Shown piece by piece: positions 50,179-56,659 of a stretch of 64,000 nucleotides of DNA. Positions within the stretch are counted from its first letter, which is position 1. Each line of letters starts with the position of its first letter. Under the pieces are notes generated by a model. That model had not been told where the DNA came from and searched no databases. It saw only the letters and a list, made by a program, of their open reading frames with translations. Source of the stretch: Sulfurifustis variabilis (GTDB lineage: Bacteria > Pseudomonadota > Gammaproteobacteria > Acidiferrobacterales > Sulfurifustaceae); the NCBI RefSeq assembly GCF_002355415.1, contig NZ_AP014936.1, forward strand, positions 2,852,001 to 2,916,000. The letters are read 5' to 3'. A program made the position numbers and the translations under genes.

Positions 50179-51291
50179 ATGAAGGGCACAGCACCCTCAT
50201 TTCCTGATCCACTGATCTTGCGCGGGGTCACGACTCGCGCCGTTCGTGTCCCCCTGAAGTTCGCGCTCGGCACGAGTGCAGCGATCATCAAGGAGGTCCC
50301 GTTCCTGCTGATCGACGTTCTCATGGAGGAAGGGCCGGTCGGACACTCGTACGTTTTCTGCTACACGACCGCCGGCGCCAAGTCGATTGCCGCGCACATC
50401 GCCGAAGCCGCGGAAATGGTGAAGGGGCGACCCGGGAAACCGCATAGCATTTTCCAGATGCTGATGCGGCGATTTGCGCTCCTGGGGGTCGCCGGCCCCG
50501 TGCGCATGGCTCTTTCGGCGCTCGACGTTGGCATCTGGGACGCGGCGGCGGTTGCGGTCGGCCGGCCTCTCGTCGAACTGTTGGGTGCCGTGCGACGCCC
50601 GATTCCCGCCTATGACAGCCGCGGGCTCGGGCTGATGGGCCCGGAGAAACTGGCCGACGAAGCCGAGGCGTTGGCGACCAAAGGAATGAAGGCGATGAAA
50701 CTTCGTCTCGGATATCCGACGCTCGCAGAAGACCTGGGTGCGTTGCGGGCCGTGCGCCGGTGTGTTCCGCGCGACGTGCTCGTCATGGTCGACTACAACC
50801 AGGCGCTCACGACCGCCGAAGCGATTCGCCGCGGCCTTGCGCTACAGCAGGAAGGCATCGCCTGGCTGGAGGAACCGATTCGACACGACGACTATTGGGG
50901 CAACGCGGAGATTGCGCGCCGCCTGGACGTTCCCCTCCAGATCGGCGAGAACTTCAACGGTCCGGAGGCGATGGCCGAAGCGGTCACCGTGCGCGCGTGT
51001 GACTATGTCATGCCGGACGTGGCGCGCATCGGTGGAGTCACGGGTTGGATGCAGGCGGCCGGGATCGCGTCCGCCTTCGGCCTGGAGATGTCGTCTCATC
51101 TCGTCCCGGAGTTGAGCGTGCATCTGCTTGCCGCGACCCCCACCGCACACTGGGTCGAGTATGTGGACTGGGCGGACGCCATCCTCGACGAGCCGCTGGA
51201 GGTGGTCGACGGCGCGGTAACCCCGCCGGATCGGCCCGGCCTTGGCATTACCTGGAGCGAAGAAAAGCTGCGCCGGCTGGAGACGTTGTGA
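50179..51291 (+). CDS. Mandelate racemase-like enolase-superfamily enzyme with K-to-R change
   Basis: 370 residues from ATG 50179 (GGGAG ahead). It aligns along its whole length with Pseudomonas mandelate racemase: VDYNQ (metal Asp/Asn), WLEEPI and IGENF (metal Glu residues), MPDVARIGGVTGW with the Asp, SSHL with the catalytic His, and HWVEYVD with the late Glu. The K-x-K motif of the S-specific base reads AMKLRLGYP, so the second Lys is Arg. Racemase activity is therefore doubtful though not excluded. Confidence 0.85.
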   Translation: MKGTAPSFPDPLILRGVTTRAVRVPLKFALGTSAAIIKEVPFLLIDVLMEEGPVGHSYVFCYTTAGAKSIAAHIAEAAEMVKGRPGKPHSIFQMLMRRFALLGVAGPVRMALSALDVGIWDAAAVAVGRPLVELLGAVRRPIPAYDSRGLGLMGPEKLADEAEALATKGMKAMKLRLGYPTLAEDLGALRAVRRCVPRDVLVMVDYNQALTTAEAIRRGLALQQEGIAWLEEPIRHDDYWGNAEIARRLDVPLQIGENFNGPEAMAEAVTVRACDYVMPDVARIGGVTGWMQAAGIASAFGLEMSSHLVPELSVHLLAATPTAHWVEYVDWADAILDEPLEVVDGAVTPPDRPGLGITWSEEKLRRLETL

Positions 51292-51731
51292 CGCTTTTTT
51301 CCACGGGCAAGCCGGCGTCAGCGAGTGCACCAGTCGTTCAATCGAGTCTGGCCACATCGATCCGCTCTGTCTTTGAAGTAAAACCGCCCGAGCACGATCA
51401 GAAACAATTCCTCTCTGAGCTGACCCAGTTTTTCCCGCACCGAGTGCAGCGAGTTCTGCCGGCTGAAACAAGGTTGCCCGCAACGCCTGAAGGCGACGGC
51501 CTCAACCCGGCCGGGGTGTTGATGCAACATTCAACATTCCCTGCGGGGCGTCCCCCTTTGTCGTTTGGCGCCCAAGGGCCAGGAACACGCTCTCACCGAA
51601 GGGTCATCGACCTCACTGCTAGACCCACTAGACCCAAAGACACCGGAAGCGGAGAGTAAAGCGCGAATAGCAATGGTCTGAGCGGAAGGGAAGATTTTCC
51701 CTGCTCCCGATTTGCTTCACGTCGGCCCATC
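51292..51731. other. Intergenic region with mobile-element debris
   Basis: It contains a fragment of the HxlR-tail repeat (51308-51336), a RAYT-like fragment (51359-51440), and a CTCTCTGA-type terminal sequence. No intact gene. Confidence 0.6.
51359..51440 (-). pseudogene. Degenerate RAYT transposase tail and REP-like end
   Basis: On the minus strand this reads LIVLGRFYFKDRADR, matching LVLGRSYFKDRIEAI of the intact RAYT at 53496-54218, and the DNA TGTCTTTGAAGTAAAACCGC is nearly identical to the RAYT 3' end. Just right of it CAATTCCTCTCTGA...CCCAGTTTTT resembles the RAYT terminal repeat. Confidence 0.65.
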
Positions 51732-51767
51732 ATGCCGACTGGCAAGCGGGAGATCGGAAGAACGTCG

Positions 51768-52427
51768 ATGGAAGATGACTTTGGCCATCCGCCGGAGCCG
51801 CCGGGCGTCGTAATCCACCCGCTGACGGTGCGAGTCGGGCACTGGATCAACGCGATCGCGATCTTCGTGATGATCTTGAGCGGCTGGCGCATCTACAACG
51901 CCTCGCCGCTGTTCCCGTTCCGTTTTCCGGACAACCTGACCCTGGGCGGATGGCTCGCGGGCGCGCTGCAATGGCATTTCGCGGCGATGTGGCTGCTGGT
52001 GATCAACGGGTTCGTGTACATACTGTATGGCATCATCTCCGGCCATTACCGTCGCCAGTTCTTCCCGATCCCGCCGCGCGCCGTGGTGGACGAGCTGGGT
52101 AACCTGGCGCGCGGGCGTCTTTCCCACCGGTTGGGCACGTACAACGCGGTCCAGAAACTCGCCTACGTCGTCGTCATTCTGCTCGGTGTGGTTCTGGTGC
52201 TCTCCGGGCTCGCCATGTGGAAACCGGTGCAGTTTCAGGGCCTGGCCGCTCTCATGGGCGGGTACGAGGGGGCGCGTCTGGTGCATTTCTTCGCCATGGC
52301 CGGTGTCGTCGTCTTCATCGTGATCCACCTCACCCTGGTGATTCTGGTGCCGCGCACGCTGCCGCCCATGTTCACGGGTCGCGCGCCGCGCCGTGCGACC
52401 TTGTCCGAGGGCGAACCCCTGACATGA
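51768..52427 (+). CDS. Membrane cytochrome b561-type protein (YedZ1-like)
   Basis: 219 residues from ATG 51768 (GGAAG 8 bases upstream; an earlier ATG at 51732 lacks one). Four or five membrane helices with likely haem-ligand histidines in HPLTVRVGHWINAIAIF, ALQWHFAAMWLLVINGF, and ARLVHFFAMAGVVVFIVIHL. It overlaps the following molybdoenzyme gene by an ATGA. It would deliver electrons from the quinone pool to that enzyme. Similar in role to MsrQ, but of a distinct cytochrome b561 type. Confidence 0.85.
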   Translation: MEDDFGHPPEPPGVVIHPLTVRVGHWINAIAIFVMILSGWRIYNASPLFPFRFPDNLTLGGWLAGALQWHFAAMWLLVINGFVYILYGIISGHYRRQFFPIPPRAVVDELGNLARGRLSHRLGTYNAVQKLAYVVVILLGVVLVLSGLAMWKPVQFQGLAALMGGYEGARLVHFFAMAGVVVFIVIHLTLVILVPRTLPPMFTGRAPRRATLSEGEPLT

Positions 52428-53185
52428 AAAAACACTCGAGTGCCTACACTGCCCTGGAGACGGTGCCGGCGAAACAGATCCACCTGATCGAGCGGCGGTT
52501 GTTCCTGCGGCGCACGCTCAGCCTCGGAGCGCTGACGTTGCTCACCGGCTGCAACGTCACCGATGTCGGCGCGGTGCAGAAAACGCTGCTGGCCATGTCT
52601 AAATGGAACGACCGCGTGCAGGCCTGGTTGTTCGATCCCGACCAGCTTGTCCCGGTCTACCCGGAAAGCGCGATCACGAACCCGTTTCCGTTCAACGCCT
52701 ACTACGGCGAAGCCGAGGTTCCGCGCGTCGACGCCGAGCGATACCGACTGGTACTGGGCGGCCTGATCCGCGACAGGAAACCGTGGACGCTCCCGCAACT
52801 CTACGCCCTGCCCCAGGTTTCCCAGATCACCCGGCACGTGTGCGTCGAGGGGTGGAGCGCCATCGGCAAGTGGAGCGGCGTGCCCTTCCGTTATTTCCTC
52901 GAGCAGGTGGGCGCGGACCTTTCCGCCAAATATGTCGGCTTTCGCTGCCTCGATTACTATTACACGAGCATCGACATGGCGACCGCGCTGCACCCGCAGA
53001 CGCAGCTGACCTTCAAGTTCGCCGATGAGACATTGCCCGCCAAGTACGGCTTTCCGATGAAGCTTCGCATTCCCACCAAGCTCGGCTTCAAGAACCCGAA
53101 ACACATTGCGGAGATCTTCGTCACCAACTTGTATCCGGGCGGCTATTGGGAGGACATGGGTTACAACTGGTTTGCCGGCCTGTGA
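52424..53185 (+). CDS. Tat-exported molybdopterin-dependent oxidoreductase (YedY1/MsrP-like)
   Basis: 253 residues. A Tat signal ERRLFLRRTLSLGAL leads to a lipobox-like LLTGC. The sulfite-oxidase-fold Mo domain has TRHVCVEGWSAIGKWSGVPF near residue 142, where the Cys ligates molybdenum, and MKLRIPTKLGFKNPKHIAEI near 208. It ends GGYWEDMGYNWFAGL, typical of the MsrP/YedY group. It probably reduces methionine sulfoxide in periplasmic proteins, fed by the adjacent cytochrome b. Downstream is a methionine-rich secreted protein. Confidence 0.88.
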   Translation: MKKHSSAYTALETVPAKQIHLIERRLFLRRTLSLGALTLLTGCNVTDVGAVQKTLLAMSKWNDRVQAWLFDPDQLVPVYPESAITNPFPFNAYYGEAEVPRVDAERYRLVLGGLIRDRKPWTLPQLYALPQVSQITRHVCVEGWSAIGKWSGVPFRYFLEQVGADLSAKYVGFRCLDYYYTSIDMATALHPQTQLTFKFADETLPAKYGFPMKLRIPTKLGFKNPKHIAEIFVTNLYPGGYWEDMGYNWFAGL

Positions 53186-53193
53186 GTGCCGCG

Positions 53194-53499
53194 ATGCCAA
53201 TGCGCTCGATCTCGGTATTCCTCCTGGTGCTCGCCTGTTCCGCGCTGCCGGCCGCCGCTGAGAAGAATGGGCCCGCCGACTCCGGCCGGACCGGGACAGA
53301 CGGCCTCGGCATGAAAGAGAAGATGCGAGGCGGCGCGCAACTACCCATCGACATGGACGAGCCGATGCCGATCGGAATGGCCAGGGAAGGCATGAAGAAA
53401 GGCGATGTGAAAGAGCACGCGATGAAGAAAGAAGCGGTTATGGACGAGATGATGAAGCAGGAAGAACAGAAACCCGGGTCAGAGAGGAATATTCGCTAA
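53194..53499 (+). CDS. Secreted methionine-rich protein (MrpX-like)
   Basis: 101 residues from ATG 53194. A signal peptide (ISVFLLVLACSALPAAA) leads to a mature part of about 79 residues, with 10 Met spread along it among Lys, Glu and Asp (GMKEKM, IDMDEPMPIGM, DEMMKQEEQK). It has no other fold. In Azospira suillum a similar Met-rich peptide, MrpX, is regenerated by YedY1 after hypochlorite oxidation; this gene is 9 bases after such a molybdoenzyme. The last residues lie inside a RAYT terminal repeat, so the C-terminus may be altered. Confidence 0.7.
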   Translation: MPMRSISVFLLVLACSALPAAAEKNGPADSGRTGTDGLGMKEKMRGGAQLPIDMDEPMPIGMAREGMKKGDVKEHAMKKEAVMDEMMKQEEQKPGSERNIR

Positions 53500-53500
53500 T
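53474..53500 (+). repeat. Left inverted repeat of RAYT element
   Basis: CCGGGTCAGAGAGG then AATATTCGCTAAT. Supplies the stop codon of the Met-rich protein gene and of the transposase. Confidence 0.75.
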
Positions 53501-54218
53501 GTACTAAATCGATGTAATACACGCCGGCCTCCTCCTCCACCCGCGGCCGCCCAGGTATGCCCAGCCGGGTCCTCCGCTGGGTGATGGCCTCGATCCTGTC
53601 TTTGAAGTAAGACCGCCCGAGCACGAGCTCATGGTTCAAGGCATCGCGGATCTCGTGCAAGAGCGCTTCATCGATATGGTGACGGAAGAGTTCCCGGTAT
53701 GCATATTGACGCTCGGAGGCAGTGTGGCCGAGCGCGGTATACAACGGATGCGGCGAGAGCAGCGGGTCGGGGCGTCCTTGCGCGTTAGCCCCGTAGCTCG
53801 ACCATTTGTACTCCGCGGCATGCCCGACCATCTCCGCCCGTATCGGGTTCAATTCGACGTAGCGCATGCAGGACAGGAGATAGGCTTCCGAATCGACCAG
53901 GCTCGCCTTGTACCGACCCTCCCATAGCGTTCCCGTTCGCCGATAGGTCTTGTTGACGTAGTACACGTAGCGCCGACCGAGCGCCTGCATCAACTCCCCG
54001 ATGCCGTGCTCCTTCATCGGCGTCAGCAAGAGGTGCACGTGATTGGTCATCAGCACATAGGCATGAATCCGGCACGCGTGCTTGTCCGCCGAAACGGCCA
54101 GATCGTCCAGATAGCGCCGGTAGTCTTGCTCGGCGAAGAAGCAGGGTTCGCGGTTGTTGCCGCGCTGAATGACGTGCTGCGGGACACCGGACAGCGTAAA
54201 CCGCGGCTTGCGCGGCAT
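53496..54218 (-). CDS. REP-associated tyrosine transposase (RAYT)
   Basis: 240 residues from ATG 54218. Y1 transposase features: the HUH motif in TNHVHLLLTPMKEH near residue 60 and the catalytic Tyr in SCMRYVELNPIRAEMV near residue 120. The N-terminus MPRKPRFTLSGVPQHVIQRG is typical. RAYTs are single-copy domesticated relatives of IS200/IS605 that process REP sequences. The gene is intact. A decayed piece of a second copy lies at 51359-51440. Confidence 0.93.
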   Translation of the reverse strand: MPRKPRFTLSGVPQHVIQRGNNREPCFFAEQDYRRYLDDLAVSADKHACRIHAYVLMTNHVHLLLTPMKEHGIGELMQALGRRYVYYVNKTYRRTGTLWEGRYKASLVDSEAYLLSCMRYVELNPIRAEMVGHAAEYKWSSYGANAQGRPDPLLSPHPLYTALGHTASERQYAYRELFRHHIDEALLHEIRDALNHELVLGRSYFKDRIEAITQRRTRLGIPGRPRVEEEAGVYYIDLVH

Positions 54219-54240: not shown

Positions 54241-54510
54241 TTAGCGGCCAATATTAGCGGATTTTGCTCTCTGACCCGGTTTTTGCGTTGGGGTTAGACC
54301 ACTGGCAAACGGGTTCGGGCCAAGCACCTTGATTACTTCGTCGAAAACGGCGGGATCTCGTAAATTGAACCCAATGCCGATAGTCGGAATTCCCTTGCTG
54401 TCGGCATATGCCCAATAAACCGTTCCTTCGTAGCCGCTTGACTTGAGCGTGTTATAGACGAGGTCGCGGTATGTCGTAGTGTTCGTGATAGTGTGAAAGG
54501 TAATCGCCAT
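54241..54510 (-). pseudogene. Truncated lysozyme-like protein gene
   Basis: 89 codons from ATG 54510 (GAGGAATC 6-8 bases before). The first 75 residues contain YEGTVYWAYADSKGIPTIGI and GFNLRDPAVFDEVIKVLG, the N-terminal half of a phage-type muramidase (the Y-x-D-x-x-G-x-P-T-I-G-x-G core). After PTQ the reading runs into the RAYT inverted repeat (KPGQRAKSANIGR) and stops. The catalytic core is incomplete, so it is read as truncated by the element. Confidence 0.7.
54253..54279 (-). repeat. Right inverted repeat of RAYT element
   Basis: ATTAGCGGATTTTGCTCTC followed by TGACCCGG; reverse complement matches the left end at 24 of 27 bases. It supplies the tail and stop of the muramidase-like fragment. 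Confidence 0.75.
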
Positions 54511-56054: not shown

Positions 56055-56435
56055 TTACTGACGGCTCTCGCCGATCGGCAACGTTCGAACGCGAATGCGT
56101 GCTTCTTCAAGGACTGCCACGCAACCCTGACGTAGTGGCTTTTCCAGTGCCGGAAGGTTCGCAAGCATTAGCGCTAGCTGCTTTTCGGGCTGGCGTCCCG
56201 ACCCCTGGCGAAACAGGATAACCGAAGGCTTGGCCTCACTTGTCAACGCCAGGAGTGTCCCGAAGTCGGTGTCCGCCGATACAACGACTCGGTCCTCTCG
56301 CGCTGCTCGCTCGAAGATGACGAGATCGTCAGCAGACTGAAGACCGAGATCACGAACGTGCGTGGCATCGTATCCCCGCTGCCGCAAACCTTCTGCCAAT
56401 ACCGGGGACAACGCGTTATCGATGAGAAACTTCAC
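56055..56435 (-). CDS. DUF5615 PIN-like toxin
   Basis: 126 residues. The PIN-like fold is seen as [20 protein letters not shown] with Asp6, [12 protein letters not shown], and [14 protein letters not shown] with two Asp, all putative metal ligands of a ribonuclease. Followed by [17 protein letters not shown]. It is paired with a DUF433 gene whose stop overlaps this start (56432-56435). RNA cleavage is inferred from the family. Confidence 0.88.
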
Positions 56436-56659
56436 GGAGCCGCGAGCGGAAGCTTTCGCTCGCGGACAGCTTCGGCGGCGTAGTGCAGCGCCTCGTGGAT
56501 ATCGTCCGGCTGGAGGTCAGGATACGCATTCAGAATCTCGCTCTCCGCCATGCCATCGGCGACCATCCCGACGACCGTTGCCACCGGGATGCGTAGTCCT
56601 CGAATGCAAGGCACGCCGTCCATTTGCTTGGGATTTACAGTGATCCGCGTAAATCTCAT
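56432..56659 (-). CDS. DUF433 antitoxin
   Basis: 75 residues, with the DUF433 pattern [20 protein letters not shown] then [21 protein letters not shown], a winged-helix-like fold. It immediately precedes the DUF5615 toxin and overlaps it by four bases, the usual order for this toxin-antitoxin type. It likely binds and neutralises the toxin and autoregulates. Confidence 0.9.

Follow-up and report, generated by a model that had tools for sequence, protein, structure and literature searches.

A b561-type cytochrome, an MsrP-like molybdoenzyme and a Met-rich peptide with a RAYT-encoded C-terminus form a candidate periplasmic repair cassette in Sulfurifustis variabilis

We identified a three-gene cluster of Sulfurifustis variabilis, at positions 51768-53499 of the window (the whole 64,000-nucleotide stretch of DNA analyzed), that encodes a b561-type cytochrome, an MsrP-like molybdoenzyme and a secreted Met-rich peptide. 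We consider it probable, at roughly 60%, that this locus encodes a cassette for methionine-sulfoxide repair in the periplasm, complete with a renewable sink for oxidants. The basis for this reading is the gene order, the protein families, the conserved residues, a lipobox motif, a statistical link between the enzyme and Met-rich open reading frames (ORFs), and a peptide C-terminus recoded by a RAYT element; against it stand a host that already encodes MsrP and MsrQ and the scarcity of the peptide within the window's own group (5 of 27 loci). An earlier sequence-only reading had proposed an MrpX-type operon. The arrangement stands, but the peptide is not of the MXKDX kind, the enzyme does not fall in the clade typical of SigF/NrsF loci, and the nearest relative, locus L037, has no such peptide.

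The cytochrome (YedZ1-like, 219 aa, predicted electron donor; 51768..52427, plus strand; PF01292, E = 3.7e-28) and the enzyme (YedY1-type, 253 aa; 52424..53185, plus strand; PF00174, E = 5.3e-27) overlap by ATGA, and the peptide gene (53194..53499, plus strand; EPM type, 101 aa, predicted mature 79 aa with 10 Met) begins 8 bases after the enzyme stop codon. The overlap had been described from the sequence; the gap, previously given as 9 bases, is corrected here. For the cytochrome, the start at 51768 was preferred by eye over 51732, which would make the protein 12 residues longer. The source genome is a single contig of 3.96 Mb. No promoter was identified at the operon (0 promoter-like sites, 0.7 in shuffles), nor was a regulator, and the two terminator-like sites there are at chance level (2.7 in shuffles).

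The best curated relative of the enzyme is the canonical MsrP profile NF003767, at 69.6 bits and thus below its cut-off of 207, and the best PDB match of the enzyme model (pLDDT 67, low-to-moderate confidence) is 1xdq, which we take to be E. coli YedY/MsrP. A sulfite dehydrogenase of the SorA/SoxC type was ruled out, the scores being 49 and 37.8 bits where the cut-offs are 600 and 420. Residues R24, R25, G42, C43 and C140, the Cys of CVEGWS, are invariant in a 10-row alignment, in line with the Tat motif and Mo-ligating Cys recognized earlier; Cys140 is presumably the Mo ligand. The Tat signal carries a lipobox, LLTGC, with its Cys at position 43. With a permissive pattern, a lipobox-like Cys follows the twin arginines in all 91 unfused enzyme rows and in neither of the two fused rows (a stricter RR pattern fits 72 of 93 rows, and the L080 row begins after its RR), which suggests that the window enzyme is a Tat lipoprotein. 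The lipobox Cys is absent in the alignment from the canonical MsrP of the host, and no title on Tat-lipoprotein MsrP-type enzymes was found among the matches listed in a literature search. That MsrP scores 476.3 bits on NF003767 and is encoded with MsrQ at G000:C1:539800-544000 (L137), so that one genome holds two different membrane-fed systems.

The b561-type partner, previously put forward as the distinguishing feature of the locus, turned out to be a family rule: a cytochrome homologue lies directly upstream of the enzyme, on the same strand, in 80 of 80 named loci, and a feature peculiar to the window is thereby ruled out. Five histidines (H25, H70, H120, H173 and H187) are identical in every residue-bearing row among 81 cytochrome rows, and four of them would hold two b haems. 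Relatives in the same order encode cytochrome and enzyme as one polypeptide with an internal RR (L117, 558 aa, with both PF01292 and PF00174; L121, 564 aa), and this fusion supports joint working of the two proteins. The fused loci (L117 1498-3515, minus strand; L121 2-2067, plus strand; L141 3348-5527) are recorded with an upstream MEHKA-like repeat gene; a Met-rich secreted gene lies just upstream of the fused gene in 2 of 4, one with about 30 Met, whereas L138 has none and L139 is a doubtful case. A design rule may be at work here, with unfused enzymes lipid-anchored beside the cytochrome and some relatives tethered to it by fusion.

We surveyed the neighbors of the enzyme in 80 named loci, which are the best 80 of at least 540 and are therefore biased towards the window. 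Met-rich ORFs were called by a rule that measures Met content alone (length 50-160 aa, 7 or more Met besides the first, Met content of 8% or more), and the downstream neighbor was defined as a same-strand ORF starting within 700 bases. A Met-rich ORF lies downstream in 41 of the 75 assessable loci (5 of the 80 were not assessable) and upstream in 9 more, compared with none of 1500 shuffles, 4 of 530 control stretches from these loci, and none of the 19 loci with more distant enzymes (L016-L034, grouped by Pfam family only). Met-rich genes thus do accompany YedY1-type genes in relatives, as an MrpX-like reading predicts. The opposite strand of the downstream stretches also passes the rule in 17 of 75 loci, at least partly through repeats read backwards, in unseparated proportion. 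Some labels were set by hand: an opposite-strand upstream ORF at L114 was excluded although flagged by the rule, an opposite-strand upstream gene at L065 was counted, and L111 was scored as having none despite a 38-aa MXKDX-like ORF, below the length limit. An evenly drawn phylum sample yielded an enzyme relative at E <= 1e-30 in 76 of 398 genomes, and of 27 A-type loci retrieved from this sample 9 are followed by a Met-rich ORF, counting the best match per genome only (second A-type matches of G574, G591, G652, G724 and G776 were left out). By this sample, the fairest measure, the peptide beside the enzyme is common but optional.

Most of these neighbors are of one kind. In 38 downstream peptides (without L042, L060 and L061), 405 of 492 Met-Met distances are exactly 5. 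On the MXKDX profile TIGR02953 (cut-off 41 bits), the peptides of L045 (60.7) and L066 (101.5) pass, those of L062 (30.7) and L007 (37.1) fall below, and those of L042, L006 and L043 gave no match. The Met-rich protein of L012 carries MSHDD repeats, and in L043 (5274-5468) and L150 the peptide's place is taken by Lys-rich, nearly Met-free ORFs with signal-like starts. Enzyme relatives at E <= 1e-20 also occur on 223 plasmid records, 58 of them from Escherichia and 13 from Klebsiella, and a 6.4-kb plasmid of Klebsiella variicola carries the cytochrome, the enzyme and an MXKDX gene.

The enzyme tree has 93 rows; it omits L118-L120, L126, L128, L129 and L009, the last of which is also absent from the alignments. 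A fully supported branch separates off 55 rows, a clade that includes 52 of the 80 loci. There, 47 of 50 assessable loci have a Met-rich peptide (38 downstream and 9 upstream), mostly MXKDX-like, with sigF homologues near 19 and nrsF near 18 of the 52 loci, as in the YedY1/YedZ1/MrpX arrangement of Azospira; in Caballeronia the order is nrsF, sigma factor, cytochrome b, enzyme, MXKDX gene. MsrA-, MsrB- or MsrAB-like genes lie near some relatives, with export signals recognized by eye in L050, L013 and L134, and an MsrA-like gene is found near 12 of 52 loci on this side of the tree versus 1 of 28 in the window's group. The window enzyme is not a member of this clade; it belongs to a group of poor resolution, as sister to L037 (100/97), its nearest relative at 81% identity, where the rule finds no Met-rich ORF within 3 kb. 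Because the tree is rooted at the midpoint, between the window's kind and a distant kind on a long branch, a "basal" position of the window is unsure. Within this group a Met-rich peptide was found in 3 of 25 assessable loci, the figure of 5 of 27 being reached by counting the window and L006. No nrsF lies near any of its 28 loci, and the three sigma-factor matches are all 3.3-3.5 kb downstream; such absences apply to the flanking DNA present, several flanks ending at contig ends. The absence of an NrsF gene from the window, already remarked upon, extends to the whole genome, in which no match exceeded the cut-off and one sub-cut-off match lies inside an 848-aa frame.

The window enzyme has no match at E <= 1e-20 in 19 other genomes of the same family, and 5 of 57 genomes of the order match it, its own included, the other four only with the distant kind. 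Its nearest named relatives, among the best 80 of at least 540 loci, are betaproteobacterial metagenome-assembled genomes (MAGs), which makes horizontal gain of the enzyme likely.

The window peptide stands out by composition. Three of 284 short ORFs in the window are Met-rich by the fixed rule, the peptide included, and the probability of at least 10 Met among 79 residues is 1.3e-4 even at a 3% Met background. Its signal peptide, like the export of other ORFs, was judged by eye. We counted 10 Met in the predicted mature 79 residues, and the structural model contains no globular fold, only one helix at residues 69-92 (pLDDT 61); apart from that helix, both results agree with what had been read from the sequence. 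Searches of Pfam and NCBIfam returned no family for the peptide. TIGR02953 matched neither the peptide nor, in a genome search, the window locus, and gave one sub-cut-off match elsewhere in the genome. A Met-Met distance of exactly 5 occurs in 1 of 9 intervals. The missing profile match and this spacing rule out a recognizable MXKDX repeat protein.

Relatives of the window peptide are rare. Five peptides (window, L006, L042, L060 and L061) share a core in which E56, P57, M58, M62, D71 and M83 are invariant, so that three Met positions are kept in 5 of 5, and the window and L006 peptides are 49% identical over 47 residues (E = 5e-11, from a single comparison). A profile built from the five matched 3 of 369 genomes of the class, namely its own and G246, both in the profile, and the new G174, and 1 of 398 genomes of the phylum, its own. 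In G174, what remains of the same enzyme precedes the copy, and in frame after it comes a second sequence that is extremely rich in Met; a gene like this second one is also present in L061, where its product is about a quarter Met. This second secreted type adjoins the EPM type in two different genomes (L061 6132-6434; L133 5108-5704). The Met-rich neighbors in relatives and the conserved Met positions together mean that the MrpX-like arrangement holds.

The 3' end of the peptide gene coincides with a mobile element. A Y1 transposase gene (Y1_Tnp; 53496..54218, minus strand; PF01797, E = 7e-13) lies between terminal inverted repeats of 31 nt that are 87% complementary (left, 53470..53500; right, 54253..54283), the organization of a RAYT. 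By frame arithmetic, codons 93-101 of the peptide (KPGSERNIR) and its stop codon lie inside the left repeat, so the re-cut 3' end that had been suspected is real; none of the 10 mature Met falls within the element. Since the L006 peptide ends two alignment columns before the window's, little peptide was lost to the insertion. The repeat consensus, allowing up to 3 mismatches, has three copies genome-wide, both ends of this RAYT and one beside a RAYT remnant, and a control pattern has none. DNA folding of the repeat ends gave nothing beyond shuffles. Upstream of the operon, a 31-bp piece (51367..51397, plus strand) is 97% identical, in the same orientation, to RAYT-internal positions 53596-53626; a genome search with 51290-51770 found no further RAYT match there. 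This terminal repeat turned coding is a clean example of a mobile-element end serving as coding sequence. Further along the window, a domain search found a DUF5615/DUF433 pair (56055-56659, minus strand), which we take to be a toxin-antitoxin-like arrangement.

In the repair cassette that we favor, the cytochrome would take electrons from the quinol pool and pass them through its b haems to the molybdoenzyme, which Tat would export in its folded state and a lipid on Cys43 would anchor to the membrane. By analogy with its relatives, the enzyme would reduce periplasmic methionine sulfoxide. The Met residues of the unfolded peptide would react with hypochlorite or peroxide and be regenerated by the enzyme, which may also re-reduce Met sulfoxide in other envelope proteins.

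A less likely reading, though one with several observations behind it, is that the cytochrome and enzyme repair periplasmic proteins generally, and that the window peptide, optional or decaying and altered by the RAYT, contributes little. In the window's group, no Met-rich peptide was found in 22 of the 27 rows that could be assessed, L037 included; the L043 peptide in the same place is nearly Met-free, the G174 EPM gene follows an enzyme remnant, and the RAYT has inserted in the 3' end of the peptide gene itself. Yet the window ORF is intact, with a signal-like start and every mature Met outside the RAYT, its core Met positions are kept across distant loci, and its spacing to the enzyme is tight. 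We infer that the window peptide still works, possibly as an atypical, declining Met sink.

The clustering of Met residues bears on a second alternative, that the peptide binds copper or silver and the enzyme keeps its Met reduced under metal stress. Five of 9 Met-Met distances are 3 to 5 residues, and MsrP has been connected in E. coli with copper stress and CusF (PMC9302797). We regard this as improbable, as none of six flanking window ORFs tested has a metal-resistance domain, and the homologous arrangements are described as HOCl-inducible in Brucella (PMC8315932) and peroxide-inducible in E. coli CFT073 (PMC8550376). Least likely is a reverse flow, in which electrons pass from a sulfur compound, oxidized by the molybdoenzyme, to quinone by way of the cytochrome: such a function was proposed for "nSor", a similar-looking Acidocella pair, from the resemblance of its cytochrome to a formate dehydrogenase subunit (PMC10715153), and the window cytochrome does match TIGR01583 weakly (34.6 bits against a cut-off of 115.85), but c3566 and c3567 mutants of CFT073 are peroxide-sensitive (PMC8550376), the enzyme is linked to Met-rich ORFs, and the proposal's own authors call for further experimental tests (PMC10715153).

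The repair cassette with its sink also invites a broader and more tentative idea, to which we give somewhat less than even credence: the enzyme family may be tied to Met content and not to one peptide family, its partners being interchangeable, fold-free redox buffers with a C-terminus free enough to take up a transposon end. The kinds meant, which differ in appearance, are MXKDX, EPM in the window, DMMM in L061 and G174, MEHKA before the fused genes and MSHDD in L012, their likeness having been judged by eye and, for some kinds, by family searches. If this is true, sacrificial-peptide defense is no longer confined to a single repeat family but extends to peptides grouped by composition, and the non-repeat, 79-residue version is simple enough for probing which Met contexts the enzyme repairs.

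The system to which the locus was compared from the outset is YedY1-YedZ1-MrpX of Azospira suillum, under SigF/NrsF, as described in or through PMC5748585, PMC4623255, PMC8315932 and PMC8550376; hypochlorite scavenging is reported for it, as cited by papers on relatives. Like that system, known here through published descriptions, the window combines a molybdoenzyme, a membrane partner and a Met-rich secreted peptide in one cluster: a Tat MsrP-like enzyme (by sequence), a cytochrome b upstream and an adjacent peptide. Unlike it, the window has neither an MXKDX family peptide (TIGR02953) nor, above the cut-off anywhere in the genome, an NrsF gene, and its enzyme does not fall in the clade of sigF/nrsF-linked loci, as judged from a tree in which A. 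suillum was represented by an Azonexus MAG locus (L045) and c3567. Perchlorate islands are described as carrying sigF/nrsF, yedYZ and mrpX, some also with exported msrA/msrB (PMC4623255).

E. coli CFT073 has the same gene order in c3566-c3567-c3568, and the window enzyme is 55% identical to c3567 over 229 aa; the cytochrome gene is annotated as frameshifted in the CFT073 record. That operon differs from the window's in being under a two-component system, and its peptide, c3568, resembles the MXKDX kind by eye. It is reported to be induced by tert-butyl hydroperoxide, resistance to which is lost in c3566 and c3567 mutants; the deletions named for the oxidant assay are these two, not the peptide gene c3568 (PMC8550376). 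Brucella bcrXQP (bcrS-abcS) likewise combines a Met-rich peptide and an Msr-type pair; HOCl induces it, and it plays a part in resistance to HOCl. Compared by description, it differs from the window in its MXKDX peptide and its regulation by an ECF16 pair (PMC8315932).

The fused relatives L117 and L121, single chains of cytochrome-like helices, an RR and a MoCo domain in that order, resemble the published Sco3746-type fused haem b - MoCo proteins, which use dual Sec/Tat export; the window genes, by the same published description, differ in being separate, and the part of that paper describing the type mentions no Met-rich gene beside the fused form (PMC5449189). The window enzyme is also like E. 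coli MsrPQ, in that 1xdq is the best solved fold for its predicted model, and unlike it in the membrane partner, MsrQ being of the ferric-reductase type (PF01794 in the host copy) and the window partner of the b561 type. The core and the logic of the window locus are therefore known from other systems; what differs is the kind of peptide, a genome in which no NrsF was found, and a C-terminus supplied by a mobile element.
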